Shown piece by piece: positions 4,345 to 44,113 of a DNA stretch of 64,000 bases. The DNA is taken from the NCBI RefSeq assembly GCF_900496995.4, contig NW_024470383.1, positions 124,001 through 188,000 on the forward strand, written 5' to 3'. Within the stretch, counting starts at the first letter, position 1. The number at the start of each line of letters is the position of its first letter. Origin of the DNA: Aquila chrysaetos chrysaetos. Lineage: Eukaryota; Chordata; Aves; Accipitriformes; Accipitridae. The notes beneath the pieces were generated by a model. The model did no database searches. It worked only from the letters and a program-made list of their open reading frames with translations, and was not told the origin of the DNA. Position numbers and translations under genes: made by a program.

Positions 4345-4378
<34 letters not shown>

Positions 4379-5960: not shown

Positions 5961-6022
5961 TTAGGAGCTGATGCAAAGGTTTTGAGCCCGTCTCGTCCCG
6001 TTGCCCTTGCTCGGGCTCTGCA
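5961..6022 (-). pseudogene. Tail fragment of a CLEC2-like lectin gene, unit 1
   Basis: These 62 bases match the last 62 coding bases of the CLEC2-like gene at 34099-34160, including its stop codon (the complement TTA is at 5961-5963). In this unit they are joined at 6022/6023 to a B30.2 exon in the opposite direction, so only about 20 codons of the lectin reading frame are present. Which neighbour is ancestral is not decided by this window. Confidence 0.6.
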
Positions 6023-6402
6023 TGTTGGGCAGCGAGGGCTTCACCTCGGGCCGTCGCTACTGGGAGGTGGAAGCGAACGGGCGCTTCTGGGCCGTTGGGG
6101 TGGCCCGTGAGTCGGTTCAGAGGAAAGGCCGGATCCTCTTCAAGCCTAATACTGAGATTTGGGGCTTGCAGCAGTACGATGAGCTCTGTGTGGCCCTCAT
6201 AGCTCCTTCCAACACCTCCGTCCCACTCCTCAACGGGGAGATAGGCATCTACCTGGACTAGGAGGTGGGACAGGTCTCCTTCTATGCTGTTGGCAGCCGC
6301 CAACGCATCTTCACCTTCCCCGTGGCTTCCTTCAGCGGAGAAAAGGTCTTCCTCTACTTCTGCGTGCTCCTCTCCACCATCAAACTGTCCCCAAAGGGTT
6401 GA
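6023..6402 (+). pseudogene. Truncated B30.2/SPRY exon, unit 1
   Basis: The plus strand reads [17 protein letters not shown], then [17 protein letters not shown], then a region ending IGIYLD, then EVGQVSFYAVGSRQRIFTFP and ASFSGEKVFLYF. This is the SPRY half of a B30.2 domain as found in butyrophilins and TRIM proteins ([16 protein letters not shown], the VGVARESV strand, the IGVYLDYExGxVSFY strand). The PRY half is absent, since the domain starts abruptly at the joint with the lectin tail. A stop codon TAG (6259-6261) sits where the family has tyrosine in LDYE, so the exon cannot encode a full domain. The last strands after LYF also leave the family consensus. It is a relic, perhaps carried along from a neighbouring butyrophilin- or TRIM-type gene. 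Confidence 0.85.
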
Positions 6403-7701: not shown

Positions 7702-8400
7702 TTATTTCCCAGTGCAGGATGCGGCCTCGGTGCTGCAGCGGGAGCTGCTCAGCCCCTTCTCCTCCTTCGAATAAGCGCAGCCGCTCTCCCTGCGGATGGG
7801 CCACCTGCACGGGGAGGGGGGTAAAAGGTGGGATCGGGGGGGCTTTATCCATCCTCCACCCCAAAATTTCCCCCTTCCCCCCCCCCCATCCAATCTCACC
7901 TGGAGGTGTTACGCTCAGCACCGCTTGGCCGCATCCAGATGGTGCCGTTGCGGCGGATGCCGAGCCAATGCGCCGTGAGCCCTTTGTAGCCGTGCAGAAA
8001 GTCCTATGGGAAGCAAAAATGGGATGATGGGGGGGATTTCCCTCCCCCCAAAAAACCCAAATCACCCCAAGACACCCCCACACCCCCCACCAGCTCCGCC
8101 GTGCGGTCGGTGCCGGCCGACGTGGCCCCCCCCGGGTCTGGCAGCGGTCCCGGCTCGCCGACCGGTCGCCTTCGGCCTCGGAAGCGAAGTAGCAGCGTCG
8201 ACCGAAGCCCACCCGACCGTCGGGGCAGGGGGCTCGGGGCTGGGGGACCCCCCCGGCCGGCGTCACCCCCCAGGAGGGTGCCGAGGAGGAGGAAGAGGAG
8301 GGTGAAGGCCAGCATCCGTGCCACCGCCGCGCACAGGCAGCTGAGCAGCAGGCAGGGCTGCCTGGGGTTGGGGGGCTGCTGGGAGAAACACCCCAAAATG
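7702..8400 (-). CDS. Compact C-type lectin-like receptor gene (B-lec/CLEC2-like), unit 1
   Basis: Four minus-strand exons can be read. The transmembrane exon (about 8267-8400) gives CLLLSCLCAAVARMLAFTLL followed by more leucines. CTLD exon 1 (about 8091-8232) gives CPDGRVGFGRRCYFASEAEG and ends TDRTAEL. CTLD exon 2 (7900-8003, 104 nt) gives DFLHGYKGLTAHWLGIRRNG. CTLD exon 3 (7702-7804) gives CAYSKEEKGLSSSRCSTEAA and ends SCTGK-stop. The KGLTAHWLGI and GLSSSRCSTE motifs match the CLEC2-like genes further right. Introns would be only about 95, 87 and 34 bases; the last is below normal intron size, so either the exons are fused with a one-base frame change in a G/C run or the splice sites differ. 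The usual tryptophan of the last strand (W-x-C) is serine or alanine here. No ATG is visible in frame upstream of the membrane segment; the start may lie in the minisatellite or be lost. A young pseudogene is quite possible. Confidence 0.6.
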
Positions 8401-11009: not shown

Positions 11010-14000
11010 ATGGGGCCCCTCTGGGCGCTGCTGGCGGCGCTGACGCTGCCCCCGACCTCCCCCGATCCGGCAGGTGAGCGGGGAAGGGGTGCGGGGAGGG
11101 GGGGGCACTTGAAAACTTGAATGAAACTTCGCTTCTTCCCCCCCCCCGCGGAATATCTCGGCTTTCTCCCTGCTTCAGCTGCCCTGCGCCCCCCCCCCCG
11201 CGGCTCTTTGCTCTCCCAAAGCACCGTTTAGGGGGGGTTAATCCTTTCTCACCTCTCCCCTGCTTCCTCCGGGCGGGGGGGGGGCACCCCCATTTTTTGC
11301 AAACCTCCACAGGTCTTGATCCCGCCCTCATTTTCTTCACACACACCCCCTCGCTTTTTAACACCCCTCCCCGGTTTTTTTACCCCCCTAGTTTTTCGCC
11401 CCCCCCCCCTTATGTTTTGAAACCCCCAATATTTTGGGGTTTTTTTTGCCATCCGGTCTGTTTTTCTTTTGCCCCTCCACCCCCCCTTTTTCTTTTTTTG
11501 CAAACCCACCTGTTTTTTGAACCCAAACCTACTTTATGCCACCCCCCCATCTTTTTGCAACCCTCCCCGTTTCCTACGGACTGCGCAGCCAGCGGGATTG
11601 TAAAGTCGGTATGTTCGTTCAGCGCCGGGCAGCACGGCGGGGAGTCCCACCAAAGTCGTGCGCCGACGCGGGAGTTCGCTTCGAGTTTATACGGTCGAGT
11701 GTTACGTATACATGGCGTTTCGCAATACGCCTATACGTAGGCATTACCTATCCCCGCTTCGTATTAAAATTAGCTCCGAGAGGTCATTTCCATAGTCTCC
11801 TCTGAACTGCCCTTGGGCAGTGCCTCCTTATGGTGGTCGTCTGGTGGTCGTGAAGATGAAGGCTGTATGTCTTCTTCACGGTGAACTCTTAACTTTCTGT
11901 CCCTGCGCACACTCAGTTGTCCCTTGGCATTTGTCCAAATCACCAGGTCAGTCGTGGCTGGTTCTTGGAGTCACTGCTGCTCCTTCTCAGGGACTATCTC
12001 CTGTCCCAGTCAGCCTCAAACGTTAAGCACCACTTCTCATCCCCTTGGGCCATGTCTACCTCTATTGAAACTTCCTTAACTTCATTATAAGCTAGATAAT
12101 TATTAAACAATGCCTATCTACATTCATATATCTACTGTATCTACTACGGTTCTTTTGGTTCCCCGTCTCACTACAAGCCCCGTTTCTTGCAAACTCCTGT
12201 ATTTTCTGCAAACCCCCTTATTTTTTGCAACCCCCTGTTTTCTTTCCACCTGTGTACGGAAGGGTTAAAAGCTGGAATTTTGGTCCGTGGATGAACACTG
12301 AGTAAGAAGTAGATAACTAAAAAACGCAGTCAGCACAGGGAACAGGGAGTTTATCATCTGTTGTTTGAAATGCTGACCGTGGGGCTAAGGAGGTTCAGCA
12401 ACGTTAGGGGAGGTGGTACATGCAATAATGGAGGAATACCAGGCACCGCACATAATTTTGCTTACCTTGCAAAAGTCTTGCCGTTGGTTAGAGCACAGTG
12501 GATGGGACCGATGGATGAGGGTAATTTGCCGCGTGCGCAAAGCCCGTGAACCAACAGAAGGGATGGTTACGGCATGTGCAGCGCGCCTGGCCGGCAGGCA
12601 CGTGCGTCCTGGGCTGCTTCTGATGCAATCGAGGCGTGTTTTGCACTCGTGGCCGCAAGCGTCGAGAGCCGTTGCTTGGCAAATGTATAAAATACCGGAG
12701 TTTTCTGAAGGGCGGTGGGTCGGCGTGCGGCGAGGCCACCGTTGCCTCCGTGGGGATGCCCGCGTAAAGCTGGCACCTACCGACTGCTGGGCCGAGCTCG
12801 TGGCGCAAGACGGCACAAGAATGTACGGATGGTTCATCTTCACAGTCCTTGGGTCAGTATGGTAATTCATTTTTTTTTTTAGCTTTGTAAGATACCCTTA
12901 GCGTAACGCATGTGTGTAGTTAATAAAAGGCTTGCTTTTTCCCTTATAGTCAGTGTGTGTGTGTTTACCTTCTCGGGAATCCTCGAAACCACCCTAAAAC
13001 ACCAACCACCCCGATTTTTTGCAACCAACTCTACTTTTTCTTTGCAACACCCCTATTTTCTTTGCAACCCCCCATATCTTTTTCCAACCCTCCTTCTTTT
13101 TTTGCAACCCCCCTATTTCTTTGCAACCCTCCTTATTTTTTTGCGACCCCCTACCCCCTATTTTTTTGCGACCCTCCATATCTTTTTGCAGCCCCCCCTA
13201 TTTTATTGCACACACCCCCCCCGCCGTACCTTCCTCACCGCTCCCAAGTGAATTTACGGCTTTGCAACTTCTTCTCCCTCCAGCTGAGCCGTGTCCCACC
13301 ATCACCGCCAACGTTCGCCAGGACAGTCAGGTCACCGTCCCCATCAACTTCACCGGGAAAACGTTTCACCTGCAAAAACGCAACGGGACGCGGTGGGAGA
13401 ACTTTGCCCTCTGCCTGGGGAGCCGCTGCCACAAAACCAGCAGCGCCGTGGCTGGCGTCAGGCTGCGGGACGGGAAACTGGAGCTCAGCAAAGCTTCGGC
13501 TGGAACCTACCGAGCCCAGGGCAGCTTGGACAACGCCTGCCTGGCGCACATCATCCTGCACGGTGCGGGGAGCAGCCGGCCCGCGCACCCCAAAATCCAC
13601 CGCTGCTTCCCTCTGAGTCCCGGGGGGCTTTCTTGGCCGAGTTGCTCGCCACACGTCTGCGCGCGCGTCTCCGCGTGCGTCCTCGCGCGCGGCAGCAATC
13701 GCGCGCGCGGAGAGCGCGTCTTTGCAAACCCCTTCCCCTGCGTCTTTGGATTCAGCAGCGATCGCCCGCGCAGAAAGCGCGTGTTTCCTCGCACCCCTCG
13801 CTCCGTCTTCGCGTGCAGCAGCGATCGCGGGGGCACAAAGCGCGTCTTTCCTCGCACCTTTCCCTCGCGCCTTCGCAGGCAGCGGCCGTCGTGCGCGCGC
13901 GGAAAGCGCGTCTTTGCAAACCCCTTCCCCTGCGTCCTCGCACGCGCCTTTCCCCGCGTTTTTCCCCTGCCTTTGCGCCCGCGCCCTCTCTGATTGCACA

Positions 14001-14517
14001 AACCGTCCCAGAACCGCAGCACGGCAAGACGCTTTTTTGCGCCGCGTGGGGTAAGAGCAAAAAAAAAGGGGGGGATTTGGGGGACACAATCAATATTAAC
14101 CTATTTGTCCTCTTTTTCTTCCTGCAGAGCCGACGCCGTCTCCGCTCCTGACCCGCGCGACGTCTCCCGAGCCTGCAAAATCCACCGGTGACTGCAACCG
14201 TGGTGCAGGAAAATCCCATCCTCCCTGCCGCTCCTTGCCGCCGCAGCGCTCATTATTTTCTTTTTGTGATTGCAGGTTGGGTTGCTCTGCCCTATCTCGG
14301 CGTCTTTGCCGTCGCGATGATCGTCGCCGGCACCGTCGCCTTCGGTTTCGGCTTCGTGTACACCTGCGGCTCCGGGGATTTCTGGCGGGGTCTGAGCTGC
14401 GTTCGCTGTTGCACCCAGAAAGGAGAAGAAAATTGGAATTCTCGGAGCAGGAGCCTCAGCCAGGGCAAAGCCCCGACCTGCAGCTCGACTTCGCAGTTGG
14501 TGTCTTCCTCTGCTTAA
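11010..14517 (+). CDS. Single-V-domain IgSF membrane receptor (CD2/SLAM-like), intact
   Basis: Four exons with matching phase-1 junctions. Exon 1 (11010-11073) is a signal peptide starting MGPLWALLAALTLPP. Exon 2 (13284-13562) is one Ig V-like domain (AEPCPTITANVRQDS through to LAHIILHG). Exon 3 (14128-14187) is a Pro/Ser/Thr stalk (EPTPSPLLTRATSPEPAKST). Exon 4 (14276-14517) is an uncharged transmembrane helix followed by a LSCVRCC stretch, a likely palmitoylation site, and a polar tail ending in a serine-rich run. The domain lacks the usual B- and F-strand cysteines (QVTVPINF and GTYRAQG instead) but has cysteines at PC, ALC, SRC and NAC. The related two-domain gene at 55747 shows the same pattern. 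N-glycosylation sequons include NFT and NGT. The tail has no ITIM or ITAM and the helix no charge, so signalling partners are unclear. CD2/SLAM first domains also lack the canonical disulfide, which is why I group it there; this is inference. Confidence 0.8.
11280..11580 (+). repeat. Minisatellite of T-run/GCAACCCCC type, left part
   Basis: Irregular repeats of about 20-28 bases built on TTTTTTGCAACCCCC and TTTTTGAACCC. The same motif resumes at about 12180-12250 and 13008-13235, so the array in intron 1 has been split by later insertions. Confidence 0.7.
11582..12175 (-). mobile_element. Old LTR-like sequence A in intron 1 of the IgSF gene, unit 1
   Basis: A block of ordinary complexity that interrupts the minisatellite. 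In the same order as the minus-strand solo LTR at 51158-51893 it has a CAGCGCCGGGCA motif, a paired GGTGGTCGTCTGGTGGTC motif and then AT-rich sequence, so a distant member of the same LTR group in minus orientation is likely. Ends are approximate and no target-site duplication is evident. It is also present in unit 2 (about 25384-25981), so insertion predates the tandem duplication. A fossil; no internal retroviral genes seen. Confidence 0.4.
12251..12952 (+). mobile_element. Old LTR-like sequence B in intron 1 of the IgSF gene, unit 1
   Basis: A second block interrupting the minisatellite, starting TGTGTACGG and ending TATAGTCA. It has a TATAAAAT box near 12686 and AATAAAAGGCTTGC near 12922, the layout of a retroviral LTR in plus orientation. 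The ends are tentative and no target-site duplication was found. The unit 2 copy is at about 26056-26765. No coding parts of a provirus are present next to it. Confidence 0.4.
13008..13240 (+). repeat. Minisatellite of T-run/GCAACCCCC type, right part
   Basis: About ten imperfect repeats of roughly 22 bases (ATTTTTTTGCGACCCCC-like) ending just before exon 2 of the IgSF gene. Its T runs could act as an extended pyrimidine tract for the exon 2 acceptor. The unit 2 copy is at about 26820-27050. Confidence 0.8.
13563..14127 (+). other. Intron 2 of the IgSF gene with GCGC-rich repeats
   Basis: Between exons 2 and 3 lie loose repeats of about 60-90 bases built on CGCGTCTTTGCAAACCCCTTC and CAGCAGCGATCGC. 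CpG density is high for an intron. Arginine-rich frames through it are compositional. The same is seen at about 27415-27985. Confidence 0.6.
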
Positions 14518-18602: not shown

Positions 18603-18635
<33 letters not shown>

Positions 18636-20221: not shown

Positions 20222-20284
20222 TTAGGAGCTGATGCAAAGGTTTTGAGCCCGTCTCGTCCCGTTGCCCCTTGCTCGGGCTCTGCA
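20222..20284 (-). pseudogene. Tail fragment of a CLEC2-like lectin gene, unit 2
   Basis: Same fragment and same joint as at 5961-6022, here joined at 20284/20285 to the B30.2 relic. The identical joint in both units shows it predates the tandem duplication. Confidence 0.6.
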
Positions 20285-20665
20285 TGTTGGCAGCGAGGGC
20301 TTCACCTCGGGCCGTCGCTACTGGGAGGTGGAAGCGAACGGGCGCTTCTGGGCCGTTGGGTGGCCCGTGAGTCGGTTCAGAGGAAAGGCCGGATCCTCTT
20401 CAAGCCTAATACTGAGATGTGGGCTTGCAGCAGTACGATGAGCTCTGTGTGGCCCTCACAGCTCCCCTTCCAACACCTCCGTCCCACTCCTCAACGGGGG
20501 AGATAGGCATCTACCTGGACTAGGAGGTGGGACAGGTCTCCTTCTATGCTGTTGGCAGCCGCCAACGCATCTTCACCTTCCCCGTGGCTTCCTTCAGCGG
20601 AGAAAAGGTCTTCCCCTACTTCTGCGTGGCTCCTCTCCACCATCAAACTGTCCCCAAAGGGTTGA
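20285..20665 (+). pseudogene. Truncated B30.2/SPRY exon, unit 2
   Basis: Copy of 6023-6402 with the same LD-stop and further one-base insertions and deletions (for example in GGCCGTTGGGTGG and in GCTCCCCTTCC) that break the frame again. Unit 3 has no B30.2 sequence because the array ends at the joint. Confidence 0.85.
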
Positions 20666-22194: not shown

Positions 22195-22680
22195 AGCCCC
22201 GATATCCTACAGCCCTTCGGGGCACCCCGATATCCTGCACCCCTTGGTCCACCCCAATGCAGAGCCCCAGTATCCTGCGCCCCAATATCCCTGCACCCCT
22301 TGGTGTACCCCAATGCGGAGTCCCGATATCCTGCACCCACCTGGTGCCCCCAATATCCCGCACCCTTCGCAGCACCCCGATACCTTGCACCCTTTGGGGC
22401 ATCCCAATGCAGAGCCCCGATATTGGGCACCCCAATATCCTGCAACCCAATGCAGACCCCCAATATCCTGCACCCCAATATCCTGCACTCCTTGGTGCCG
22501 CCCAATATCCTGCACCCCTTGTTCCACCCCGATGCAGAGCCCCAATATTGTGCACCCCAATATTCTGCAACCCCTCGGTGCCCCCCAATACCCTGCACCC
22601 TTCATGGCACCCCAATGCAGAGCCCCAATATCCATCTTACACCCCTCGGTGCACCCCAAAGCAGCACCCCCATATCCCGC
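22195..22680 (+). repeat. C-rich minisatellite (ATCCTGCACCCC type), unit 2
   Basis: Copy of 8455-8960 with nearly the same order of variant repeats, so the array was duplicated as a block rather than expanded afterwards. Confidence 0.9.
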
Positions 22681-24425: not shown

Positions 24426-24534
24426 GATATCCTTTATACACCATCCACTATCCGCATCATAGACTGTGTATCCACTACATCCAGTATATAGAACAGCATC
24501 TCTGCTGTCTCCCCGCACACCCTCTCTGGATGCT

Positions 24535-24799
24535 CTACGCGCACGTATGACATCACACACACGTCATACACCCCCCATGGCCACCACCCCCCCGCCCGCT
24601 CACCTCTCTGGAGCAGCAGAGCACCGCTCCAGGCCCCGCCCACTGGTGGGCGGGGTCCGCGTACTGGGCGGGGAAATGGGCGGGGCCTGGCTCCTCCCTC
24701 CACTTTCCGCGCCGCATCTCGGCACGCGGGGCGCGTTCCGTCCCCCGTGTCCCCCCCGTGTCCCCCCCGTGTCCCCTCCCCGTGTCCCCCCCCAGCTCC
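24535..24799 (+). promoter_or_regulatory. Promoter region of IgSF copy in unit 2, with an extra GC box
   Basis: Same inverted CRE-like repeat and GC palindrome as unit 1. Between the palindrome and the last GC box it carries about 18 extra bases (TCCGCGTACTGGGCGGGG) that look like a local duplication of a GC-box block. Confidence 0.5.
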
Positions 24800-25383
24800 A
24801 TGGGGCCCCTCTGGGCGCTGCTGGTGGCGCTGACGCTGCCCCCGAACCATCCCCCGATCCGGCAGGTGAGCGGGGAAGGGGGTGCGGGGAGGGGGGGGCA
24901 CTTGAAACTGAATGAAACTTCGCTTCTTCTTCCCCCCCCCGCGGAATATCTCGGCTTTCTCTCTCCCTGCTTCAGCTGCCCTGCGCCCCCCCCCCCCGCG
25001 GCTCTTTGCTCCTCCCAAAGGCACCGTTTAGGGGGGGTTAATCTTTCTCACCCTCTCCCCTGCTTCCGCGGGCGGGGGGGGGCACACCCCATTTTTTGGC
25101 AAACCTCCCACAGGTCTTGATCCCGCCCCTCATTTTCTTCAGCAAACACCACCCCCTCGCTTTTAACACCCCTCCCCGGTTTTTTTACCCCCCTATTTTT
25201 TCGCCCCCCCCCCTTATGTTTTGAACCCCCAATATTTTGGGGTTTTTTTGCCATCCGGTCGGTTTTCTTTTGCCCCTCCACCCCCCCCTTTTTCTTTTTT
25301 TGCAAACCCACCTGTTTTTTGAACCCAAACCTACTTTATGCCACCCCCCCCATCTTTTTGCAACCCTCCCCGTTTCCTACGGA

Positions 25384-25981
25384 CTAGCGCAGCCAGCGGG
25401 ATTGTAACGTCGGGTATGTTCGTTCAGCGCCGGGCAGCACGGCGGGGAGTCCCACCAAAGTCGTGCGCCGACGCGGGAGTTCGCTTCGAGTTTATACGGT
25501 CGAGTGTTACCGTATACATGGCGTTTCGCAAATACGCCTATACGGTAGGCATTACCTATCCCCGCTTCATATTAATTAGCTCCGAGAGGTCATTTCCATA
25601 GTCTCCTCTGAACTGCCCTTGGGCAGTGCCTCCTTATGGTGGTCGGTCTGGTGGTCGTGAAGATGAAGGCTGTATGTCTTCTTCACGGTGAACTCTTACT
25701 TTCTGTACCTGCGCACACTCAGTTGTCCCTTGGCATTTGTCCAAATCACCAGGTCGGTCTTGGCTGGTTCTGGAGTCACTGCTGCTCCTTCTCAGGGACT
25801 ATCTCCTGTCCCAGTCAGCCGCAAACGTTAAGCACCACTTCTCATCCCCTTGGGCCATGTCTACCTCTATTGAAACTTCCTTAACCTCATTATAAGCTAG
25901 ATAATTATTACACAATGCCTATCTACATTCATATATCTACTGTATCTACTACGGTTTCTTTTGGTTCCCCGTCTCACTACA
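25384..25981 (-). mobile_element. Old LTR-like sequence A, unit 2
   Basis: Colinear copy of 11582-12175, duplicated along with the unit. Confidence 0.4.
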
Positions 25982-26055
25982 AGCCCCGTTCTTGCAAACT
26001 CCTGTATTTTCTTGCAACCCCCTTATTTTTTGCAACCCCCTGTTTTCTTTCCACC

Positions 26056-26765
26056 TGTGTACGGAAGGGTTAAAGCTGGAATTTTGGTCCGTGGATGAAC
26101 ACTGAGTAAGAGTAGATAACTAAAAAACGCAGTCAGCACAGGAACAGGGAGTTTTATCATCTGTTGTTTTGAAATGCTGACCGTGGGGGCTAAGGAGGTT
26201 CAGCAACGTTAGGGTAGGTGGTACATGCAATAATGGAGGAATACCAGGCACACGGCACATAATTTTGCTTACCCTTGCAAAGTCTTGCCGTTGGTTAGAG
26301 CACAGTGGATGGGACCGATGGATGAGGGTAATTTGCCGCGTGCGCAAAGCCCGGAACCAACAGAAGGGATGGTTACGGCATGTTGCAGCGCGCCTGGCCG
26401 GCAGGCACGGCGTCTCTGGGCTGCTTCTGATGCACGATGGGCGTGTTTTGCACTCGTGGCCGAGCAAGCGTCGAGAGCCCGTTGCTTGCAAATGTATAAA
26501 ATACCGGAGTTTTCTGAAGGGCGGTGGGTCGGCGTGCGGCGAGGGCCACCGGTGCCCTCCGTGGGGATGCCCGCGTAAAGCTGGCACCTACCGGACTGCT
26601 GGCCGAGCTCGTGGCGCAAGACGGCACAAGAAATGTACGGATGGTTCATCTTCACAGTCCTTGGGTCAGTATGGTAAATTCATTTTTTTTTTTAGCTTTG
26701 TAAGATACCCTTAGCGTAACGCATGTGTGTAGTTAATAAAAGGCTTGCTTTTTCCCTTATAGTCA
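26056..26765 (+). mobile_element. Old LTR-like sequence B, unit 2
   Basis: Colinear copy of 12251-12952, duplicated along with the unit. Confidence 0.4.
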
Positions 26766-28121
26766 GGTGCTGTGTGTGTGTTACCTTCTCGGGAATCCTC
26801 GAAACACCCTAAAACACCAACCACCCCCATTTTTTGCAACCAACTCTACTTTTTCTTTGCAACACCCCTATTTTCTTTGCAACCCCACCATATCTTTTCC
26901 AAACCCTCCTTCTTTTTTGCAACCCCCCCTATTTCTTTGCAACACCTCCTTATTTTTTTGCGACCCCCCATATTTTTTTTGCGACCCCCCCCCTATTTTT
27001 TGCGACCCCTCCATATCTTTTTGCAGCCCCCCCTATTTATTGCACACCACACACCCCCGACCCCCCCGCGTACCTTCCTCACCGCTCCCAAGTGAAATTT
27101 ACGGCTTTGCAACTTCTTCTCCCTCCAGCTAGCCGTGTCCCACCATCACCCGCCAACGTTCGCCAGGACAGTCAGGTCACAGTCCCATCAACTTCACCGG
27201 GAAGACGTTTCACACCTGCAAAACGCAACGGGACGCGGTGGGAGAGAACTTTTGCCCTCTGCCTGGGGAGACCGCTGCCACAAAACCAGCAGCGCCGTGG
27301 CTGGCGTCAGGCTGCGGGACGGGAAAACTGGAGCTCAGCAAAGCTTCGGCTGGAAACTACCGAGCCCAGGGCAGCTGGACAACACGCCTGCCTGGCGCAC
27401 ATCATCCTGCACGGTTGCGGGGAGCAGCCGGCCCGCGCACCCCAAAATCCACCGCTGCTTCCCTCGGAGTCCCGGGGGGCTTTCTTGGCCGAGTTGCTCG
27501 CCACACGTCTGCGCGCGCGTCTCCCGCGTGCGTCCGCGCGCAGCGGCAGCAATCGTGCGCGGCGCTGGAGAGCGCGTCTTTGCAAACCCCTTCCCCTGCG
27601 TCTTTGGATCAGCAGCGATCGCCCGCGCAGAAAGCGCGTGTTTTCCTCGCACCCCTCGCTCCGTCTTCGCGGTGCAGCAGCGATCGCGGGGGCACAAGCG
27701 CGGTCTTTCCTCGCACCTTTCCCTCGCGCCTTCGCAGGCAGCGGCCGTCGTGCGCGCGCGGAAAGCGCGTCTTTGCAAACCCCTTCCCCTGCGTCCTCGC
27801 ACGCGCCTTTCCCCGCGTTTTTCCCCTGCCTTTGCGCCCGCGCCCTCTCTGATTGCACAAACCGTCCCAGAACCGCAGCACGGCAAGACGCTTTTTTGCG
27901 CCGCGTGGGGTAAGAGCAAAAAAAAGGGGGGGATTTGGGGGGACACAATCAATATTAACCTATTTGTCCTCTTTTTCTTCCTGCAGAGCCGACGCCGTCT
28001 CCGCTCTGACCCGCGCGACGTCTCCCGAGCCTGCAAAATCCACCGGTTGACTGCAACCGTGGTGCAGGAAAATCCCATCCTCCCTGCCGCTCCTTGCCGC
28101 CGCAGCGCTCATTATTTTCTT

Positions 28122-31100
28122 TTTGTGATTGCAGGTTGGGTTGCTCCTGCCCCTATCTCGGCGTCTTTGCCGTCGCGATGATCGTCGCCGGCACCATCGC
28201 CTTCGTTTCGGCTTCGTGTACACCTGCGGCTCCGGGGATTTCTTCTGGGGGGGTCTGAGCTGCGTTCGCTGTTGCAACCCAGAAAGGAGAAGAAAATTGG
28301 AATTCCTCGGAGCAGGAGCCTCAGCCAGGGCAAAGCCCCGACCTGCAGCTCGACTTCGCAGTTGGTGTCTTCCTCTGCTTAACCAAAGCAGCACTTTTTT
28401 TAATGGCATTGTCTTTAGCCAAATCCGGCTTTTGCAGAAAAGGGGGGGGTGGGGGTGGGCAATGTAGCAGGAGGGGAGGGGAAGATTTTCCTTGCACTGA
28501 GTCTTCCCCAGCCTTAAGAACACTTTATATTAGCTAAAAGAGGTTAGATGATAGATATATTTATAACTTTTAGAAAACTATTTAATACCAGTTATTTATT
28601 TTTTTTCTGTTTTAGGACCATTTCCAGCTGCTCAGTTTTCCTTCCTTGAAATTTGGGAGGGGGGGGGTGGTTCCTTTATGCCAGCCAGTATTTATCAAAG
28701 GCAAATATTCTGCTTTTTTGTCTCTGTTTACATAGGAAAAAATACGGAAGAAATAAATTGGGTGCTCAAACTGAAGGGTTTTTTTCTCTGATATGTGCTA
28801 TGGAGATTAACAGTTATTTATTTGTTGATTTACTGTCTTGTGCTTTTGCCACTATAGTGTTTATTCTGCATCATCTTCTATAAATGGTTTTTCATATTAC
28901 CCGTCTGGCGTGATTATTTTTTTCTGCCACAACAAGGTGGGGTTTTTGCTGGAAACACTATGTGGGTAAATGGGATTTATTTCGGGGGGGGGTGGGTAAT
29001 AATTTTATATATTTATAATAAACAGCGTCACGGCTAATGAGCATCATTTGGGAATGCAAGGAGAGGAGGAGGGATGAAGGCTGAGCATCCTATGGGGGAA
29101 TTAATTGCAGAATTAATTTGTCCCTTGCAAGGATGACGCTGTTTAATATTCGTCTGGGGAATGGAAAACAAAAATCTGTATTTCTTTTTGCAGTGGCACA
29201 AAGGCAAAGTCCCAGTTTGAAACCAACTTCCCCCCATCAGAATTATTAAAAAAAATTCCTCCTGCCAGCAAAAAAAAAAACAGGAAGAAAGAAAGAAGTT
29301 TGGGGATATTTTCTTCCTCCTTTTGGGCCCCATACATTTTTTTATAATGGCATGTACAGTGAGGATGTGTGAGTTTTTCGCCCCATCCCCTGGACCCACC
29401 AGTGATGGGCACATGGGTGGGGACAGGCATAGTCACTATGACTCACAGCACAGACCAGAATGTGGCAAAATTCACTGGCGTACTGGGCAACGCCCTTTCC
29501 TGTAGCCCTGGGATTGATTTTTTCTTGTCAATTTTTATCGTGCCTGACCCTCGTTTTCATCTGCCGGGCTTCCCCCTCTTTCTTACTGCCAACCTCCTCC
29601 ACCCCCTCCTCACGCCTAACGCCTTCTGTAAGTCTAAACTCCTTTTTTTAGGAAAATAAAGAGCGGAAATAAAGAGAGAAGAGTTGGGGGTGGTCGAGTG
29701 GAAAATTCCGCACCGAGCAGCCTCTCGCACCCTTCGAGCAGGTACTGGGGGGGGCATTGTGTGCAAACTCATGGGTGCCCACCCATGGGTGCTCCTGGGT
29801 TGCGGGAGATGCTGCCATGAAGGCAGCTGCGATACAACCGTGTTCATCTCGCGTGCAGAAGGAGAGGAAGAAAAATAACACGTTTATGTAACAAAAAAAA
29901 AAAAGATACTTTTGGCAGAAAGCTGGAAAATTCCCTGCGATGCCACTGCAGCCAAGCCCCAAACCCAACGGGGGTTTTTTCCTTCCCTCCCCAGCCAGCC
30001 CAAGGCTTTGTGATACTCAGGAGTTTCTCCTCTTCCCTAAATCCTGTCTTTATCCCTCTTTTTTTTTTTTTTCCCCCTGCCTTATAGAAATATAGGGACA
30101 AACATGCTCAGAGCGGTAAGGGGGGATCTCTTCTTCACCACCCAACCTTTCATGCCAAGCAGCCAATTTGATCCCTTCCTATAAGGATGCTTTGCTCCAT
30201 TTATCATCCTCACTTTTAAGCATGAAGTTTTGTGGGTTTTTTTTTTGTAATAAAAGGAAATTATTTAAGGAAAAATTAAACCAAGTGACTTACCAGGATG
30301 CCTGGATGGGGGGGGATGCTGCCGCGGGGGCACCGCCCTGTCGTGACCTGCAAGTCTGGTTCCAAGACCATTAAAAAGTGCTGTCGCCAGCCCTAAAAAA
30401 AAAAAAGAGACAAGAATTTAAAAAAAATAAAATAAATCACCTGTGGGTTGCAGGGAATACAAGGTGCTGCCCCAGCACCTCTGCCTGAAGCGCTCGCGCC
30501 GTTTTCTGCCGACGTTTTGATTCCTGGCAGTGAGCAAAGAGGAAAAACCTCTCCTGAGGAAGGAAGAGGAGGACCGCAGGGGAGTTTCGGGGGCAGGCAG
30601 CCCAGCTGGCGCCACATGGATCCCCTTTTGGGTCAAATAATGAGAATATTCGTCATTTGTTAAATTTTTTCCCAATTTTGGTCTTTTTTTTTTTTTAATC
30701 CCCTCACCCATATAATTTTCCAGGGCTTGGGGGTAAAGTGAAAAAGCTTTTCCTTTTATCGTCATCTATGCTCGTCGGTCCTGCCCAAATCCGGCCGGCC
30801 AGACACGCAAAAGAAAGCAGAAGTAATTTTAAAATTGAAAACAAAAACAACTTCAGGCTGTAATTGAGAGCAGTAACAGAACTAGCCGCAGGGGGGTACC
30901 AGAGACTAAGACAGTTCTGGATGCACATTCGCTTCCTTTAAAAAGAAATTGCTTTGCCTGTTAAGTAGGAAAGATTTAATATATATTTTGGAGGGTTGTT
31001 TAGTTCTTTAGAGTTTTTGTAGCTTTTAAAATTTTTTTTAGGATTTTAGTTCTTTAGGTTTTTATATTTCTTGAGTTTTTTAGTTCTTCCATTCTTTAGG

Positions 31101-32476
31101 TTTTTATTTAATAACTCCCCAGACCAGCTGGATCCAGGGGGGCTTCTCAGCTCTGCAGGAAGCAGAAAAGCTTCCAAGACGGCTTTGATGCGAACAGCTA
31201 TCCCAACCCCGGCCAATGATTGAAGACCCGCGGCGATGTCCCTAGACCACATCTCACGAAGCCACTAAGAAAGCCTGGAAAATATCATTGCAACTCACCC
31301 AAAACTCGCTTTTCGGAGAGCACCTTTAACAAATAGCAGGTAGTCTTTAAAAAAAGGATCTGCTTTTTGGATGCTTGAGGCACTCAGCAATGCTAAAAGA
31401 TGCTCCAGGTTGGGCGGGAGAAGAGTTTTGTCTGTCAGCCCCTCACACTTCACCCACCTAAAGCAGTTTTTTTCCCCTCACATCGATGTGCAAAGGCTGG
31501 GAAAAACCTAAAATAAGAGGAAAGGGCAGCTACTGAAGCGTTTTCCACTGTGCTTCAATGGAAGCAGGTGATTAAGGGCAGCGCCAGAATAGGTTCATTA
31601 ACCAACAATAAATTTTTATTGCATATAGTCGCCACAAGTAATTACTCAGTCTGTAACAAATGGGAATAACGTATTGTGCAGAAAAAACATCTCAAAAGCG
31701 TCAGCTGCTTAAAAAAAACAACCACCTTTAAAACCGATGCATGTGAATTAAGCAGCGCCTGGTGCAATGAGACAGAACCGAAGAGAAATCACAAAATGCA
31801 GTAAAAAAAAGGGGGGGGGCAAAGTTTTGCCTGTTCATCCATCAATTTTTTTGAGATTTCTGGGAAAATTCCTCACTTGGTGTTTTCATTGCAGCTATTC
31901 CATCTCCGTCTGATGGATCCTGCAGGGGTGAATCCTGCGGGTTCAAGGCATGCGGGAAGACCAAAACATGCAGGTTGGGTTTTTTTTTTTCTTTGCTCTT
32001 TTCCTCAAAGAGGCCGATAAACACTCAGTATTTCCTCATTAACAGCAGAGATTTAATTCTAGGTCTTTTCCTATTATTAGGATATGTATATATATTAGAT
32101 ATAATTCTAGGCTTTTTCTCATTTTGTACTGTTTCACCTCAAATAAAGAAAGGGTGCGACAGTGCACATGTAACTCCATGGAAATGCAAGTGAGGTCTCC
32201 TAAGCCAAAAGCATGATATAATAAATTAATACCCCATTTTGCAACACTTTTGCAGGCAGAACGGGTCTGAAAAGCACCCAAAAAAGCCTGAATTTAAGCC
32301 CAAGCAGCCGCGCTTATCTAAACATCGAGGTGTGTTGGGATCCAGGGAAAGTGGATTTTGAGCTACAATATTTGAAGCATGTGTTTACCATGGGGAGGGA
32401 AATGGGCTGTAACTCTCAGCATTGTTGTTCAACCCGCACAAGCAATAATAGTAATAGCAATAGTAACAGTAACAAT

Positions 32477-32510
<34 letters not shown>

Positions 32511-34160
32511 GATGATGATGATGATGATGATGTGATAGATAGTGCCCTACTCCAGGTTAAATTTGGCTGTTTTCCAGCAGTAATTATGAAATTATTGCTA
32601 AACAGTTTGGGCGTCGTTTCTCTGATACTGCCCTCAGACCATCTTGTCTGGTGAAAAATCTCGCCAGCAGCCCAAGGGTGCGTTAAAAGCCCTCAAAAAT
32701 ACTAAATTTGGTTGTCACTGAGTGTTACACGATGCTAAAACAGCAGCTGATCTGAAGACGGTCCTTTCGCAGGGTGAGGATGCGCACGGAGGGGGAGCAG
32801 GAACCGTTTCCCCAGGGTCTGGGCTGTGCTGGGCTAAACCCTGTTGATCCCAGGAGACAGAGCTGCCAACTCCACGAGCCAAGGACATCCCCCATAATTC
32901 TGCCCCCCAAAAACCCTCACTTTGGTGAAACATTGCTGGGAGACCATCTGAGAAGACAGTGATCACCAAATTGCTGAAAGAGGAGAAACCAAAGGATTTC
33001 ATCAGTCCTGGGAAAAAGCTGGATCCTTTAGCTATTACTGCTAAATACCACTAAAAATTAAAGTGCTGCTAAAATCCTACTATCCTCACGTTGACACCTT
33101 CACCCACAGTCCCCAAGTTGAGATGCTCGTCAAAAAAAAGGCTCTCCTGGACGTTGTTGTCCGTGCAAATGTGTCAGCTTTCATCAAGATGAGATGCTTG
33201 AAAGTCTTTCCTGGACACAGCGTTCCATGAAAATGTACAGAGAAAACCTTCTCTTTTACTCCTCCTTTTTTTTAAAAAAAACCTTTTACACCTAACCTCA
33301 CTGGCATGTTAAGGCGAAGACGTCACCTTCTTTCTCCAACCAGTTGGAGCTGGTTGCTCCAACCTTGACTTGGCAGATCCTCCCCAATCCTGCCACTGTC
33401 CCACCCCCCGGAGCTGTGTCCTTGGAGAGAACAATCTGACTTTTGATGCGTGGAAATTTCTTCGCCTTCATCTTGCTCTTGATACAGAGCCACGTATGGT
33501 CACAGGTTGACTTGGCGGCTTTGCAGCTTAGGCTTTTACCGAAGACGAGAGCAGCAAATTCTTGGAGGTCTTGCAAGCATTGTCCATCCTTGCAGCATTT
33601 CCGCATACTCGTGAGGTGTCAGGAGGCTTTTCTCAGCCAACCAAGCCTGAAGGTTGCTGCTTTCACTTCACAAAAAGTGGGAAAAGAAAAAAGCCTATGG
33701 CATTTGCCCACTTTTCCGGTCGCACGGTGCAAGGCTGCAGACATCTTGCTAAGCTTCAGCCTCTAGAGTCCTTCCAGAGTCGTCGGTACAGCTACGGCTT
33801 TCCTCTTGCTCTGACATTTAATTGTGGTGGGGTTATGAATAAGTCATTACCAGGTGTGAACCGCAAGGGTAATTGCACTCAATTCCTGTGAGTAATCACC
33901 AGATACTTTTCCTTGGTCATATGGCAAAGTTGGGTTGGCAAATGCAGACACGTAATAACTTTGGTTCTTCTCAGCAAATTTTGGCAATAGGTTTTTTCTC
34001 TGAGTTTGCTTTTTCTGTGGGGTTTTTTTTGAGGTTTTTGTTTTGTTTCCCTACCGTGCACCAGGTATTTGGATTTAAGGAGCACTCCCTGCAGCCCCTT
34101 AGGAGCTGATGCAAAGGTTTTGAGCCCGTCTCGTCCCGTTGCTCTTGCTCGGGCTCTGCA
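28122..34160. repeat. Tandem unit 3, truncated at its right end
   Basis: This stretch is colinear with 1-6022 of unit 1 and 14263-20284 of unit 2. Identity stops abruptly after the shared string ending CTCTGCA: units 1 and 2 continue into a B30.2 exon, while here the sequence continues into the last exon of a CLEC2-like lectin gene on the minus strand. The array therefore ends inside a coding exon. Only the IgSF transmembrane exon, the spacer and the lectin relic of the unit are present. Confidence 0.93.
33415..33580 (-). pseudogene. Candidate C-type lectin terminal-exon relic, unit 3
   Basis: Copy of the 5280-5440 relic with the frame open (CKAAKSTCDHTWLCIKSKMK). It lies about 0.5 kb downstream of the stop of the CLEC2-like gene that ends at 34099 and on the same strand, so it could be a leftover of a second lectin copy. 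Confidence 0.3.
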
Positions 34161-36687
34161 GCTCGAGCTTATTGCAAACCCAGCTCCTCTCGGTGCTGCA
34201 GCGGGAGGAGCTGAGCCCGTTGTTGTTCAGGTAGGCACAGAGGCCACCACCGTGGATCCGGAACCTGGAAGGACAGGTGAGACAACCCACCTCAGATGGG
34301 GACAGCAGGAAAAAGGAGAAAAATCACATTTTGGCTTTCCCCCACCCCCCTTCAGTTCTCAGGCATCCTCATGGGCATCAGTATGCCAATATTGATGCTG
34401 AACTATTTCTATTTTGGCAGCAGTCCAGGTTAGCCATAAGAAGCATGAAGCTTTGAAAGAAAAAAACTTATTTAAAAATGAAAAATCTAACAGTGTTTTC
34501 CCTGCCAAACACACTGCTTCCACCTCTCAAGTCAAAGGGAAAAACGAAGACTAGCTCTGGATGCAACATTCGTTTTCTTTCCCAAACGTCATTGTCTCAT
34601 TGCTATCTCTGGATGCCCCTCAAATGCCAGAAGAAATGCATATTTCGGGGCTGAGGAAAAACACCAACCAGCAATGTAACGATGAAAAACACAGACTCAC
34701 AGGCGAGATAAATGCGAGTGGTTCACCCATCTCCATGGCTGCTCCTCATCTTCCCGTGAAAGGCCAATCCAATGCTCTGAGATCCCTTTATATCTTATCA
34801 CAAAGCTCTGAAAAAGAGGAGAGAGAAAGGCTTTATGGCAGGTCACAGGGCTTTCGGACATCTCCAGCAGGTCACCATTTGCAGAAACCTCCTTCCAACC
34901 AATAATCTACATTTTACCAGATGCTCATGCTCCTTTAGGGCTCCTACCTGCTGGAACCTTTCAATCTGCTAGCAAAAAGTGTAATCTTTAAGGCAGACCT
35001 TTATTATTGCATCAAAACAGGGCTTTTTTTTGCTATAGTTCTTGCATCGGTTGGCTTTGGTGAGAAATTTGAAGAGACCCATGATGACCTACCCTCAAGA
35101 AAACCATTTTGCCCATCTCCTCACCCCAGATCTCCAAGGAAGACCTTGGAAGAGCAGTCAAAGAAACTGAAAGGTGGCAAATACGTTGGTGGCTTTTTTT
35201 TTCCCCCCATGCTAACCATGTCCTCATGTCTCCTTACCAAGTCTTCCACGCTGTCAAGCATGGCCAAGGAAGCACCAAGTGCTGAGCAATTGTCCTGGCT
35301 GGATGTCCAGTTCCCCTCAGCCTCCGAAAAATAGTAGCATTTTCCTCTGTACCCGATCCAGTCGAACGGACACCGAAAGCAGGGTTGGGGACGAGGCTGA
35401 AAAGCCTGCACTGTCATAGATAGAACAACAGTGTTAAGGAGCAGCACCTTCTCCTTGCCTCTCTGGGGTGGGGAAGGTCATCCTCCACCCCGTGGCCTCC
35501 AAAAGTCTTGCACCTGCCTCAACAGTGGGAGGAAAGAAAAATTAAGACACCAAGAGAAATCTTGGGTGGATTGGAGGGAGAAAACAAGCTCAAATCATGG
35601 CCCAGTTTATGGCATTGGACAAGAAATGTGGTGCAAATGTGGGTGCTGTACCTTCAAAGAAGAAAACAGGGTGGTGGCTTTCAAAGACACAAGTTTTAGG
35701 AGGATTTCCAGAATAGCCCTATCCCTAAATGCACCCTCAGGTATTGCTGTCTGTCATTAGTGCAAAAGTAGCAATGGGCAAAGGACAGAAAAAAAAGTTC
35801 TCTTGTTCCTGCAGACTTCTTGGCTTTGTAGGACTCATGCCAACATCTCTGGCTGTTTGTTTTCTCTGAAGAAAACATCTTTGGGAAAGCTCAGGTGACT
35901 GTACCCATGAAATGGCTCTTTCTGGTGTTTTTTTTAAGGGTTTCTAGACGACATCAGCTCCTACACAGACGATTTGGTCTTCTGTAGAAAGGCTTCTCTG
36001 CTCATTGAAATGTCCCTCTCCTGGTGTCCTGGGTTCAGCTGGGATAGAGTTAATTTTCACAGGAACCTGGGAGAGGGCACAGCCAGGACAGCTGACCTGA
36101 ACTAGCCAAGGAGCTATTCCATACCGTGTGACATCATGCTTCCATATATAAATAGACAGCGGGCTGGGGGGGCAGTTCTTGGCTCTTGGCGTGGGAAGTG
36201 ACGGAGCATCGGGTTCCGGGTGGTGAGCAGTTGCACTATGCATGACTCATTTTGTATGTTTTCATTAGTACCACTGTTGTAACTTCTCTTTTTGTGCTGT
36301 CTCAGGAAACTGTCCTTATCTCAACCCATGAGGTTCTGTTTTCTTTTCTTTTCTTTTCTTTCTTTTCTGATTCTCCTCCCCATCCCACAAGAGCGGGGCG
36401 GGGAGGAGTGAGCGAGCGGCTGCGTGATGATTTGTTACCGGCTGGGCTTAAACCACGACACCTGGAGAGGACAACATATTGGGTCGGGCTGCGTCTTCCC
36501 TGGGAGCATGGAGGTGGACCTGGCACACGTGCAACAACCCAAAGTATCTCAGGGACATTCCCCACGAGATGAAAACCTCGACACTCACCTGCAAAAGTGA
36601 TGGCCGTGATGAGCAGAGCTATGAACAGCACCGCCATTGTCACCTGACAGGCAACACGCGCCTCCGGCTTCATCTCAAGGCTGTAAC
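34099..36687 (-). CDS. CLEC2/B-lec-like C-type lectin gene (type II membrane protein)
   Basis: Minus-strand exons with correct splice sites and phases. The transmembrane exon (36589-36687) reads YSLEMKPEARVACQVTM, then AVLFIALLITAITFAG. CTLD exon 1 (35238-35410) reads CPFDWIGYRGKCYYFSEAEG and on to LDSVEDL. CTLD exon 2 (34701-34807) reads SFVIRYKGISEHWIGLSRED and PWRWVNHSHLSRL. CTLD exon 3 (34099-34264) reads GLCAYLNNNGLSSSRCSTER, SWVCNKLELQ and an 18-residue extension. All CTLD cysteines are present and there are no calcium-binding EPN/WND motifs, as in CLEC2/NKR families. The first coding exon is not settled: a 49-nt exon at 38840-38888 (ERVVPRQPARSHRPYP, donor CAG/GTAAGG) fits the phase, and a start exon would lie further right. 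The gene is divergent from the receptor at 41008, like Blec and BNK in chicken. Its last 62 coding bases belong to the tandem array, and a solo LTR sits in its first CTLD intron. Likely a ligand for the adjacent NKR-type receptor, by analogy. Confidence 0.85.
36025..36460 (+). mobile_element. Solo LTR of an avian endogenous retrovirus (ERVL-type)
   Basis: It starts TGTCCTGGGTTCAGCTGGGA, ends AAACCACGACA, and is flanked by a perfect 5-bp target-site duplication CCTGG (36020-36024 and 36461-36465). A TATATAAATA box near 36144 and a CT-rich microsatellite are included. Five-base duplications fit class III (ERVL-like) elements; the family name is not certain. It is a solo LTR with no internal genes, lying in the intron between the membrane exon and first CTLD exon of the CLEC2-like gene. 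The intact duplication suggests moderate to young age. Confidence 0.85.
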
Positions 36688-41007: not shown

Positions 41008-44000
41008 ATGGCTGGGGAAATAATTTATGCTGATTTAAGGCATCCTGGGGATGGTTTTTCTCCTGCCGAGAAGCGTCACGGTAAGTGCTATTTTGGGGGG
41101 AAAGCACTTATTTCAAGCTTTGCTTGCTTTGGGAAGACTTTTGGGTTCGCTTGCTTCTCCATCCCCATGTTGAGTTTTCCAAGATACATGGAGAACGCTG
41201 GATGGATTAAGTGTCCTCTAAGTGGGATCCCGGCTTGCACAGAGGGCAAAAAAAGCAAGGAAGGGATGGGGGAGAGAAAAGCCAGCAAACATCCGGAGGT
41301 TGAAGAGTTTTGCTTCCAAGACCCTTCACTGGGTAGCAAAAAGGGGTCCCAAGAAGCCCAATGTGAGCCAACACACCTTGATGGGAAGCAAAGCTGCTGA
41401 CACCATGTCTGGGATCCTGGGGGAGATGAGGTCTGAAAGACCCATGTCCCACCGACTCCCAGCTCAACCGCGAGCAGGTTTCGCCTGTTCTAAATTAAGC
41501 CAATTTCAGAAGGTGTCAGGTCTGCTAAGCTCTATTGTTGGGTGCCCCAGGTTGCTCTTGAGGCTACCTGCAGCCCCTCCACCACCTGAAAAACCCACCC
41601 TTAGGTGATGCCCTCACTTCTGCATCCAACTTTATCGGTGGTGATTTATTTTTTTGGAGGAAGCAAAGCAGCCGTTAACTTCTGCTCAAACTTGCCAACT
41701 TGACAGAGGGGCTTTTTTTTTTTCTTTCTCTAAGAACCCCAGCTTTTTCATGTGAAAATGTGCACATTTTTTTAAGCAAATGTGGCCTCTTTCAGCTCCT
41801 GCCTTGTGCCCACGGTGGCATGGGGTCGTCCTCAAAGTCAGTGGGCTGGGGCACCTCGTCCTGCTGGTGCTGGTGGTAGTGCTGAGCGTGCAGGGTGAGT
41901 AACCAGCTCTTAATCTATATCTCAACACGCAGCGAGCAGGCTTGGAGGGGAAATCGTGTTTTATTTCAGTATTTCAGCCTTTGGAGGGGATGAGGTTGCC
42001 CACAGAGATGCAACAAGATATATCACCCACCAAGAGTAAACCCCCTGTGGAATAAACCCAGACTATCCCCGTAGGTTTTAAACAAGGGTGGAGGGTACAA
42101 GCCATGTTTTTCAGGCTGGCTTAATTAACCGGGTGCAACCACAGCAGAGAAAAAAGGAGGGTTGCACAAAATCAAACCCAGACCTACCTGGTTTTGTGGG
42201 TTTTATCCCCAAACGGCTGCAGCCTCTCACCCCAGGTCATTCCTCCAAGTCTTTCAGGGCTCTCTGCAGCCGGTGATGACAAGCATTCCCTGGCAAGGCA
42301 GTGAGACCCGGGGAAAGAACCACACGGAGCAATGCGTGATTTCAGCCCTGATGCAGTATTACTGCAAGCCCCGGCAGGACAGCCCCACAGGTAACTCCCC
42401 CCCAGCTCTGTTGGGGGATGCTCAGGTGGAACTTTTGATGGGGCTTCCTCCGCCCTTCAATTGCCAGGATGCCCTTGGGATTTCGAGTTGGTGACCCACC
42501 AAAGGGTTATTTGGCAAAGAGGGTTGTTGCAAGGAAGTATTTCTTTTTGCATACATGGAGGAGCAGGACTAACCCCAGGGAGGAGGTTCCTCACTACCCT
42601 TCCTCCACCCCAACCATCCATTTTTGTCCCTGTGGCCACCCAACCCCAGTCTTCCTCCTCCTTTCCAGTGGCTGAGTAGGAAAAAACACAACCGTGCGAA
42701 AAAGACTCAAGGATGGGGAAAGAGCCAAGGTGTGGGGTGGGGAAACCCTTGGTGCCTTTCAGGTGGTGGCTGGGGAAGACCTTGACCACACTTTGGGTTG
42801 CCTCATGGCTCTTTCTCCTCTTCAGCCTGTGCTGGCTGCAAGCTGTGTCCCCAGGACTGGCAGCTCCATGGGGACAGATGCTACCGGCTTTCCAAGGAAA
42901 CGGGGAACTGGAATCAAGGCAAGAAAGGCTGCGAAAATCAGGGGTCTCAGCTGGCAATGCTCCGGGACAAGAAAGAAGAGGTAAATACAGAGGAGAAGGC
43001 TTGAAAAAGACCTGAAAATCAGGGTTTTTTTAGGTGGGCAGGGGAGCAAAAAGTGCCCGGCGGCAGGAGGGTTTGGGGCTGCAACAGTGGCTCTCACCCA
43101 CCTCCTGCTCTGATGTCTCCTAAGAAGTGACTGGGAAGAAAAAAGGGCGGAATCATCACCTAAAGCCCCTCTGTGTTCCCCCACCCAACTGTGACATGGG
43201 AGGAAGAGGAGGGACGCAGAGCTCAGATGGAGACGTCAGTGTCCTGGGCTCTGAATTTAAGCTAGTTCCACCCCAGAGCTCCCTTTAGAGATGGTGCATG
43301 GAGGCCTTCAAAGAACAGGGGACATTTGTGTCCCATCTCTTTGGGGATGAAATGAGTCAGATTTACTCCGTGGCTTTGCACCCCATGAAACTCTCTGCAG
43401 AGAGATTTTGGGAGCAACCGGTCACCTCCATTTCCCAGGAGTACATCAAGAATATTACAGGCGGACGCACACAGCCGGTGTGGATTGGATTACTATCATC
43501 CCACAGGAACTGGAGATGGGTGGACAACACATCCCTCAACACCAAAATGTGAGTGTATCTGCAACACGTTGGTGTAAAAAGCAGCTTTGCTCCATTTCAG
43601 ACCCAGTGCATGCCCTGACCCACCCTTCCAAGATCTTTCTGTCTATGCAACGGTCTCGTAGTCCTCCTGCCAAAGCTTTGCAGACCGAGAGTTGGGTTTA
43701 CAGAGCACGATAACCCAATACCTCCCACCATCCCATGCAACCAACACAGCTTTTAATGGTCCATGCATGCTCCTTGCAGATCTTATTGCAAGCACAGCAA
43801 CCTGCACTCAAATCTGGGCCACCCACCAGCAAGAAATCATTTGTAGCACAATGAGATGGTGCAGAAAAAGGGCATGAGAAACCTCCCCTCTTCTGCAAGC
43901 CTGGAAGAGTTTGCTCCTCTCAGGCAATAACATTTTTTGTTCTGTAGGTTTCGCACCCTGCAGGAGGTGGATGAAGGGTGTGGGACACTGAAAAACAAGA

Positions 44001-44113
44001 TGTTGGAGGTCGATATCTGTGACGCTGAACATGAGTGGCTTTGCCAGAAACACCCTTTCCAGCTCTCCCCATCGACGGCAGGAGGTGGAAAGAAGTGCGA
44101 AGCCTCCGTCTGA
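41008..44113 (+). CDS. BNK/KLRB1-like C-type lectin NK receptor with ITIM
   Basis: Six exons with consistent phases. Exon 1 (41008-41080) reads MAGEIIYADLRHPGDGFSPA; IIYADL is a full ITIM. Exon 2 (41796-41894) is the membrane exon with ALCPRW before GHLVLLVLVVVLSV. Exon 3 (about 42250-42390) is a stalk with two cysteines and an NHT sequon. Exon 4 (42826-42980) reads CKLCPQDWQLHGDRCYRLSK. Exon 5 (43439-43548) reads EYIKNITGG then VWIGLLSSHRNWRWVDN. Exon 6 (43948-44113) reads EGCGTLKNKM, DICDAEHEWLCQKH and a short tail. All expected CTLD cysteines are present and the calcium-binding motifs are absent, as in NKR-P1/KLRB1. It is predicted to be an inhibitory type II receptor recruiting SHP phosphatases, about 248 residues. 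It lies between two CLEC2-like genes, the natural ligand family of NKR-P1 receptors in mammals and the arrangement of BNK and Blec in the chicken MHC. The exon 3 start uses the acceptor CTCCAAG, the only one I found that keeps the frame. Confidence 0.88.

Follow-up and report, generated by a model that had tools for sequence, protein, structure and literature searches.

Tandem array between a B30.2 gene and a CLEC2D-like lectin gene in the golden eagle, with fused exon ends at its internal joints

Main

Contig NW_024470383.1 (C91) of the golden eagle, Aquila chrysaetos chrysaetos (assembly GCF_900496995.4, 1.23 Gb in 144 contigs), carries a tandem array between a plus-strand B30.2 gene and a minus-strand CLEC2D-like lectin gene, and at every internal joint of this array the end of the lectin is fused to a truncated B30.2 exon running in the opposite direction. 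Part of the array lies in the 64,000-nucleotide stretch analyzed here (the window, C91:124001-188000), and we examined C91:1-258000 in total; positions without a prefix are those of the window. The array is an ordinary duplication scar, and in our judgment the joint very probably arose through a microhomology-type tandem duplication between the two convergent genes and was later spread by exchange between the copies. The case thereby answers which side of the joint is ancestral, and it provides an example in which both breakpoints fall in coding exons without loss of either gene.

Results

Self-comparison of the contig revealed four head-to-tail units of 13.6-14.3 kb each, spanning C91:102511-158160 and containing three fused joints. 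An earlier sequence-only reading of the window had recognized the repeat unit and misjudged the extent of the array, which begins at C91:102511, about 21.5 kb upstream of the window. The left edge lies within an intact PRY-SPRY (B30.2) exon and the right edge within the intact terminal exon of the CLEC2D-like gene.

The lectin side of the joint corresponds to a 62-base piece of the native gene (34099-34160, minus strand) made up of the stop codon, 19 codons and two bases of a Leu codon; the stop is thus part of the 62 bases and not additional to them, and the part of the lectin tail inside the repeat comes to 19 complete residues instead of the 18 first counted. A copy of the piece lies at 5961-6022 and another, longer by one C, at 20222-20284, and both copies directly adjoin a 5'-truncated plus-strand B30.2 exon, which bears out at base level the fusions previously placed at 6022/6023 and 20284/20285. 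The position 34160/34161, proposed as a further joint, belongs to the native lectin, and the actual third joint of the array is located outside the window, at C91:116379/116380. A 93-base query of the whole assembly matched at least four places, all on C91, one being the native lectin and three its repeat part; given this confinement, the recurrence of the lectin piece is not a matter of chance. Every internal joint consists of a lectin side ending in TGCA followed by a B30.2 side starting with TGTTGG, and the first two joints are identical across 80 bases.

Comparison with the intact donors at the two edges demonstrated that the joint combines them exactly, in agreement with the earlier proposal that a lectin terminal exon recombined with a B30.2 exon to create the unit. 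At the joint of unit 3, the left donor matches 197 of 200 bases after the break and the right donor 55 of 200, while before the break the right donor matches 162 of 200 ungapped (17 contiguous) and the left donor 65 of 200 (the last 4 contiguous). A BLAST comparison of the donor flanks against each other gave no match crossing the break, the best match between them (E 0.007, 14 bases) being more than 850 bases away from it. The string CTCTGCA, previously regarded as common to both sides, is the lectin-side sequence; the intact B30.2 donor lacks CTC and reads CCGTGCA, and the donors share only TGCA. The window contains CTCTGCA 30 times, compared with an average of 10 after shuffling, an excess that stems in part from the window's own repeats. 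Intact donor sites at both edges, four-base identity at the break and the absence of extended homology together form the pattern of a microhomology-type duplication.

The left donor is a two-exon plus-strand gene (C91:101971-102046 and 102379-102890) with splice borders and 195 open codons, and the second exon encodes PRY (1.1e-14) and SPRY (1.2e-18), which identifies it as a B30.2 gene. We searched the three plus frames of C91:84001-104000 for a RING, B-box or coiled coil ahead of the B30.2 domain and obtained no Pfam match to any of them. A full TRIM gene was accordingly rejected as the left donor, the B30.2 exon being preceded instead by the short coding exon 101971-102046; RING exons occur at a greater distance, at C91 positions 69.3 and 74.5 kb (plus strand) and 94 kb (minus strand). 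The B30.2 pieces opening units 2-4 share an in-frame stop, derived from a Tyr codon, and a His-to-Arg change, both absent from unit 1, and at these sites proteins of Haliaeetus, Cariama, Otus, Strix and Anas have His and Tyr. That units 2-4 share these derived changes indicates that the joint was formed once, and most likely the fused B30.2 piece decayed once and was then multiplied.

Excluding gaps, pairwise identity is 98.75 to 98.85 percent among units 1-3, suggesting a young array unless the units have been homogenized, and 97.0 to 97.3 percent between unit 4 and each of the others. Private transitions and transversions number 33/18, 29/32, 31/14 and 113/146 in units 1 to 4, and private 1-bp indel events 25, 40, 28 and 108 (22, 29, 20 and 90 when counted more strictly). 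The surplus of transversions and 1-bp indels in unit 4 (20285-34160) is found mostly in its first 12 kb, suggesting a poor consensus, and this surplus probably reflects consensus error rather than age. Larger differences were also observed: 134 bp occurs in unit 1 only, 593-594 bp is absent from units 1 and 4, and 621 bp is absent from unit 2. Site patterns dividing the units two against two conflict with one another (32, 27 and 12 sites, to which alignment or consensus errors may contribute) and vary along the unit, as fits exchange between units, and near-identical units with such mosaic variants are characteristic of homology-driven array expansion. Because the units exchange sequence, distances between them are unreliable for dating the array.

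From these observations we propose the following order of events. Before the duplication, a small plus-strand B30.2 gene and a minus-strand CLEC2D-like lectin gene would have stood with their 3' ends facing, about 14 kb apart, an arrangement in the eagle's ancestors to which the gene models of other birds point. The copied segment would have started within the B30.2 terminal exon and stopped within the lectin terminal exon, its ends meeting at TGCA, and the result would have been a second unit with an intact B30.2 gene at its left edge and an intact lectin at its right edge. Both genes would survive because they run toward each other into the copied segment. The units, by then homologous, may next have undergone unequal exchange or conversion that raised their number to four. 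Microhomology-mediated end joining, fork stalling and template switching, and microhomology-mediated break-induced replication are mechanisms of such tandem duplication, and the repair would probably have followed a pathway of this type. The array resembles microhomology-mediated tandem duplication in its short common string, the lack of longer homology across the break and its intact edges; it differs in that the growth to four copies looks homology-driven.

The four exons located for the right donor, from the transmembrane exon onward and with no upstream cytoplasmic exon among them, join into one open frame. Its best sequence match in the PDB is CLEC2D (E 1e-41), followed by CD69, and the product has the CLEC2-family layout, with a transmembrane segment (recognized by eye) followed by a C-terminal C-type lectin-like domain (CTLD; Lectin_C 48.6 bits). 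In mammals CLEC2D (LLT1) is a ligand of NKR-P1. The eagle lectin is similar to it in the transmembrane segment, the CTLD and the PDB match, whereas the eagle and other bird lectins carry an NLC[IV]SS-type tail, which the listed turtle homologues do not. Counted from the first base of the stop codon, the nearest poly(A)-type signal is 279 bases downstream, and its distance from the joint is 338 bases; it falls within the last unit, and for this reason the lectin 3' untranslated region is probably inside the unit as well.

We then considered the tail itself in the best 120 of the 249 lectin homologues found. A motif test detected an NLC-type tail in 30 of these 120, and inspection by eye added P0002 and P0008, whose tails are closely similar. 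Among the birds with the tail are stork, crane, hoatzin, cormorant, owls, falcon, goshawk, duck, passerines, ostrich, kiwi and emu, together with ibis by eye. In another 40, of which 2 come from turtles and 38 from birds, the sequence stops no more than 9 residues past the last WxC, and the remaining 48 comprise turtle sequences, isoforms, fragments and sequences with different ends. The native lectin has Ser at one tail residue where units 1 and 2 have Gly; by eye, Gly occupies this site in 23 of the 30 motif-bearing homologues, and thus Ser is probably the newer state. In simulated swaps onto the lectin, the tails of units 1 and 2 changed only Ser to Gly, and the unit 3 tail yielded a shifted end 8 residues longer, although its extra C lies within a C run and is possibly an error. 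The earlier suggestion that crossing-over would alter the C-terminus of the lectin therefore holds for the Ser/Gly residue, and for a frameshift if that C is real; the tail is otherwise the same and the effect was overstated, the array contributing at most slight variation to the tail. As a separate observation, the cysteine-containing NLC[IV]SS-like tail (34099-34160) is conserved among bird CLEC2-type lectins and absent from the listed turtle homologues, whose tails differ; it is possibly a dimerization or sorting element.

Discussion

Several alternative explanations deserve consideration. A pre-existing repeat as the source of the lectin's C-terminal tail, which had also been proposed, would agree with the position of the joint just past the CTLD, where similarity among the C91 lectin paralogues stops. 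The same tail, however, is present in birds from ostrich to passerines, among them ibis, crane, hoatzin, owls, falcon, duck and kiwi, and the lectin tail is consequently not derived from the repeat; acquisition would further require two independent breaks at one base, and some C91 lectin paralogues end in their own tails, 14 to about 20 residues long. We regard this origin as extremely improbable. An assembly artefact, whether false duplication or misjoined haplotypes, could account for the private differences of unit 4, which with most of the 1-bp indels resemble consensus errors, and for the slight excess of transversions over transitions in unit 2. Against it stand three joints at one exon-to-exon break, a derived stop common to three units and the 134-bp, 593-594-bp and 621-bp differences, and a false haplotype duplication would not be expected to fuse two exon interiors; we therefore consider an artefact quite improbable.

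A duplication and joint that are old and common to many birds would be in line with the apparent adjacency of B30.2 and lectin genes in sparrow, owl and seriema models and with their occurrence in one region in the crested ibis. The high identity of units 1-3 speaks against great age, with the reservation about homogenization given above, and the joint residue is spanned in 120 of the 120 B30.2 homologues among the matches listed (best 120 of 3,833, in a search that admitted proteins of about 260 to 820 residues only), so that an old joint appears unlikely, if somewhat less so than an artefact. It has likewise to be asked whether the fused ends are functional, for instance through B30.2 read-through antisense over the lectin, with the array tuning lectin expression. 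The sparrow models do extend from the B30.2 exon into lectin antisense, and the lectin 3' end with its poly(A) signal is repeated in each unit; yet the fused B30.2 copies contain stops and lack the exon start. Such a function seems improbable to us, only marginally less so than an artefact, and the fused gene ends are probably inert. For annotation, the fused B30.2 pieces and lectin tails should be treated with caution, as relics.

Having set these explanations aside, we retain a single microhomology-type duplication followed by exchange, and acknowledge several points that weigh against it. Under a simple random-join model, four or more common bases occur in 1.6 percent of joins, which leaves microhomology at TGCA only suggestive. 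The unfused ancestral interval is supported by predicted gene models and equal contig sizes, not by the DNA of other birds. Short truncated B30.2 products of other birds could not appear in a search limited to about 260-820 residues. The 38 short bird lectin records stop 4 or 6 residues beyond their final WxC, and in 37 cases the last residue is the one that follows the joint codon. Every one of the 38 carries the label partial and is read as an annotation end, and they still show no tail, while two further birds have other lectin ends (P0026 and P0078). Finally, unit 4 looks error-rich, and the copy number may accordingly include an assembly fault.

Comparison with orthologues had been suggested as a means to decide whether the joint is old, and gene models of other birds, on which this comparison rests, suggest that B30.2 and lectin are old neighbours. 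White-throated sparrow models P0143 and P0144 contain a short exon and a B30.2 exon followed by plus-strand sequence antisense to the lectin (C91:158528-159331 for P0144 and in part P0143; 160504-160677 for P0143). Strix models P0133 and P0134 hold B30.2 together with a lectin domain (P0134 by eye only). These owl models were rejected as a natural B30.2-lectin fusion: P0133 joins the B30.2 exon to a different lectin, the next one on the plus strand (about 41.8-44.1 kb of the window), and is most simply a read-through model. The seriema B30.2 and lectin proteins (P0126, P0010) are both listed on a 16,648-base contig, and the goshawk lectin and immunoglobulin (Ig)-like proteins both on a 2,110,544-base contig; these equal sizes suggest the same contig in each case and do not prove it. 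As predicted from sequence, the sparrow, owl and seriema models fit an old neighbourhood of B30.2 (plus) and lectin (minus).

To the left of the array lie a GNT-I family gene, histone-like genes and TRIM-like RING exons, with further exons that we take to be ABCF1-like. This flank fits the TRIM region of the avian major histocompatibility complex (MHC) as commonly understood and as presented in the available portions of PMC4988538 and PMC5173252. In the chicken MHC-B, the available text of PMC4988538 places B30.2-only and Blec-type genes together in the TRIM/Blec sub-region, which the eagle locus resembles in having both kinds of gene in one sub-region and from which it differs in the four-unit array between B30.2 and lectin. 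The accessible sections on the crested ibis list zfp, histone, B-BTN1 and four Blec genes at the Blec end, with B-BTN1 and Blec in one region of about 60 kb (PMC5173252); B-BTN1/B30.2 and Blec thus share one region there as in the eagle, and those sections mention no tandem B-BTN1/Blec unit. For the emperor penguin, the portion available of PMC5002281 describes KLRB1-CLEC2 pairs associated with TRIM7. We found no report of a comparable B30.2/Blec tandem array in the literature searched, as far as the accessible parts of these sources extend.

Genes within the units and other features

Table 1. Coordinates of the array units, joint pieces and genes (window positions unless prefixed C91)
Feature	Position	Strand	Remarks
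Unit 1	C91:102511-116379		
Unit 2	C91:116380-130022		Right part is window 1-6022
Unit 3	C91:130023-144284 (window 6023-20284)		14,262 bp
Unit 4	C91:144285-158160 (window 20285-34160)		13,876 bp; right edge within lectin exon
Lectin tail and stop copy ending unit 2	5961..6022	-	Genome query and alignment
5'-truncated B30.2 exon opening unit 3	6023..6402	+	In-frame TAG
Second CLEC2-like gene remnants, unit 3	7726..8245 (8126-8245, 7950-8000, 7726-7779)	-	Last two weak, E 0.20 and 0.024
LOC115337874-like Ig-domain, linker and transmembrane stretches, unit 3	13277..14481	+	Open; ends approximate
Lectin tail copy ending unit 3	20222..20284	-	63 bases; extra C would shift frame
5'-truncated B30.2 exon opening unit 4	20285..20665	+	TAG and several 1-bp indels
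Lectin terminal coding exon	34099..34264	-	AG before, stop TAA; 34099-34160 in repeat, 34161-34264 unique
Lectin CTLD exon 2	34701..34807	-	AG/GT borders, frame kept
Lectin CTLD exon 1	35238..35410	-	Border and frame check
Lectin transmembrane exon	36589..36687	-	Border and frame check

The units carry remains of two further genes. Remnants of a second CLEC2-like gene are detectable in units 1, 2 and 3, whereas unit 4 gave no match at E up to 1; the 593-594-bp stretch absent from units 1 and 4 contains its third exon remnant. Every unit also matches an uncharacterized Ig-like membrane-protein gene, LOC115337874, the copies being mostly broken: only unit 3 keeps the Ig, linker and transmembrane stretches open, and units 1, 2 and 4 have frame changes there, some of which are perhaps errors. 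At E up to 1 the signal-peptide stretch was matched in units 2 and 4 only, and it is visible by eye in unit 1. One homologue search with LOC115337874 gave 5 hits among 40 candidates, all from Accipitridae, two of them from the golden eagle itself. For the 213-residue Buteo protein, the predicted structure has a helix at the N-terminus, a beta-sandwich domain and a long helical stretch, the last of these read as a putative transmembrane segment; this model, built from three sequences only, has a mean predicted local distance difference test score of 61, and residues 31-120 give block means of 71 to 86. In a Foldseek comparison most matches to it were Ig V-type domains; the best E was 9.6e-5, and TM-scores for the model as a whole were only about 0.3. 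Pfam gave no identification for the Ig-like stretch in three frames, and for the three raptor homologues it returned three weak hits below the cut-off that we took as chance. It is conceivable, if doubtful, that the duplication amplified a young, raptor-restricted Ig-type membrane-receptor gene located between the B30.2 gene and a CLEC2 ligand gene, a new family born in an MHC/natural killer (NK)-type cluster with the fused ends as its boundary marks. From this locus, the Ig-like copies and the tail conserved in bird lectins offer the most worthwhile leads.

Beyond the array, more C-type lectin exons occur on both strands (41795-44110, 45177-46209 and 62455-63896). A whole-genome search for the lectin family listed 42 matches, none on C91, whose split lectin exons this search was unable to count. 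Two plus-strand Ig V-set-like exons were observed at 56478-56846 (V-set 6.2e-09) and 57241-57639 (below the Pfam cut-off). The segment 44894-47157 is repeated in inverted orientation at C91:218721-220935 and 237443-239656, with about 95 percent identity.

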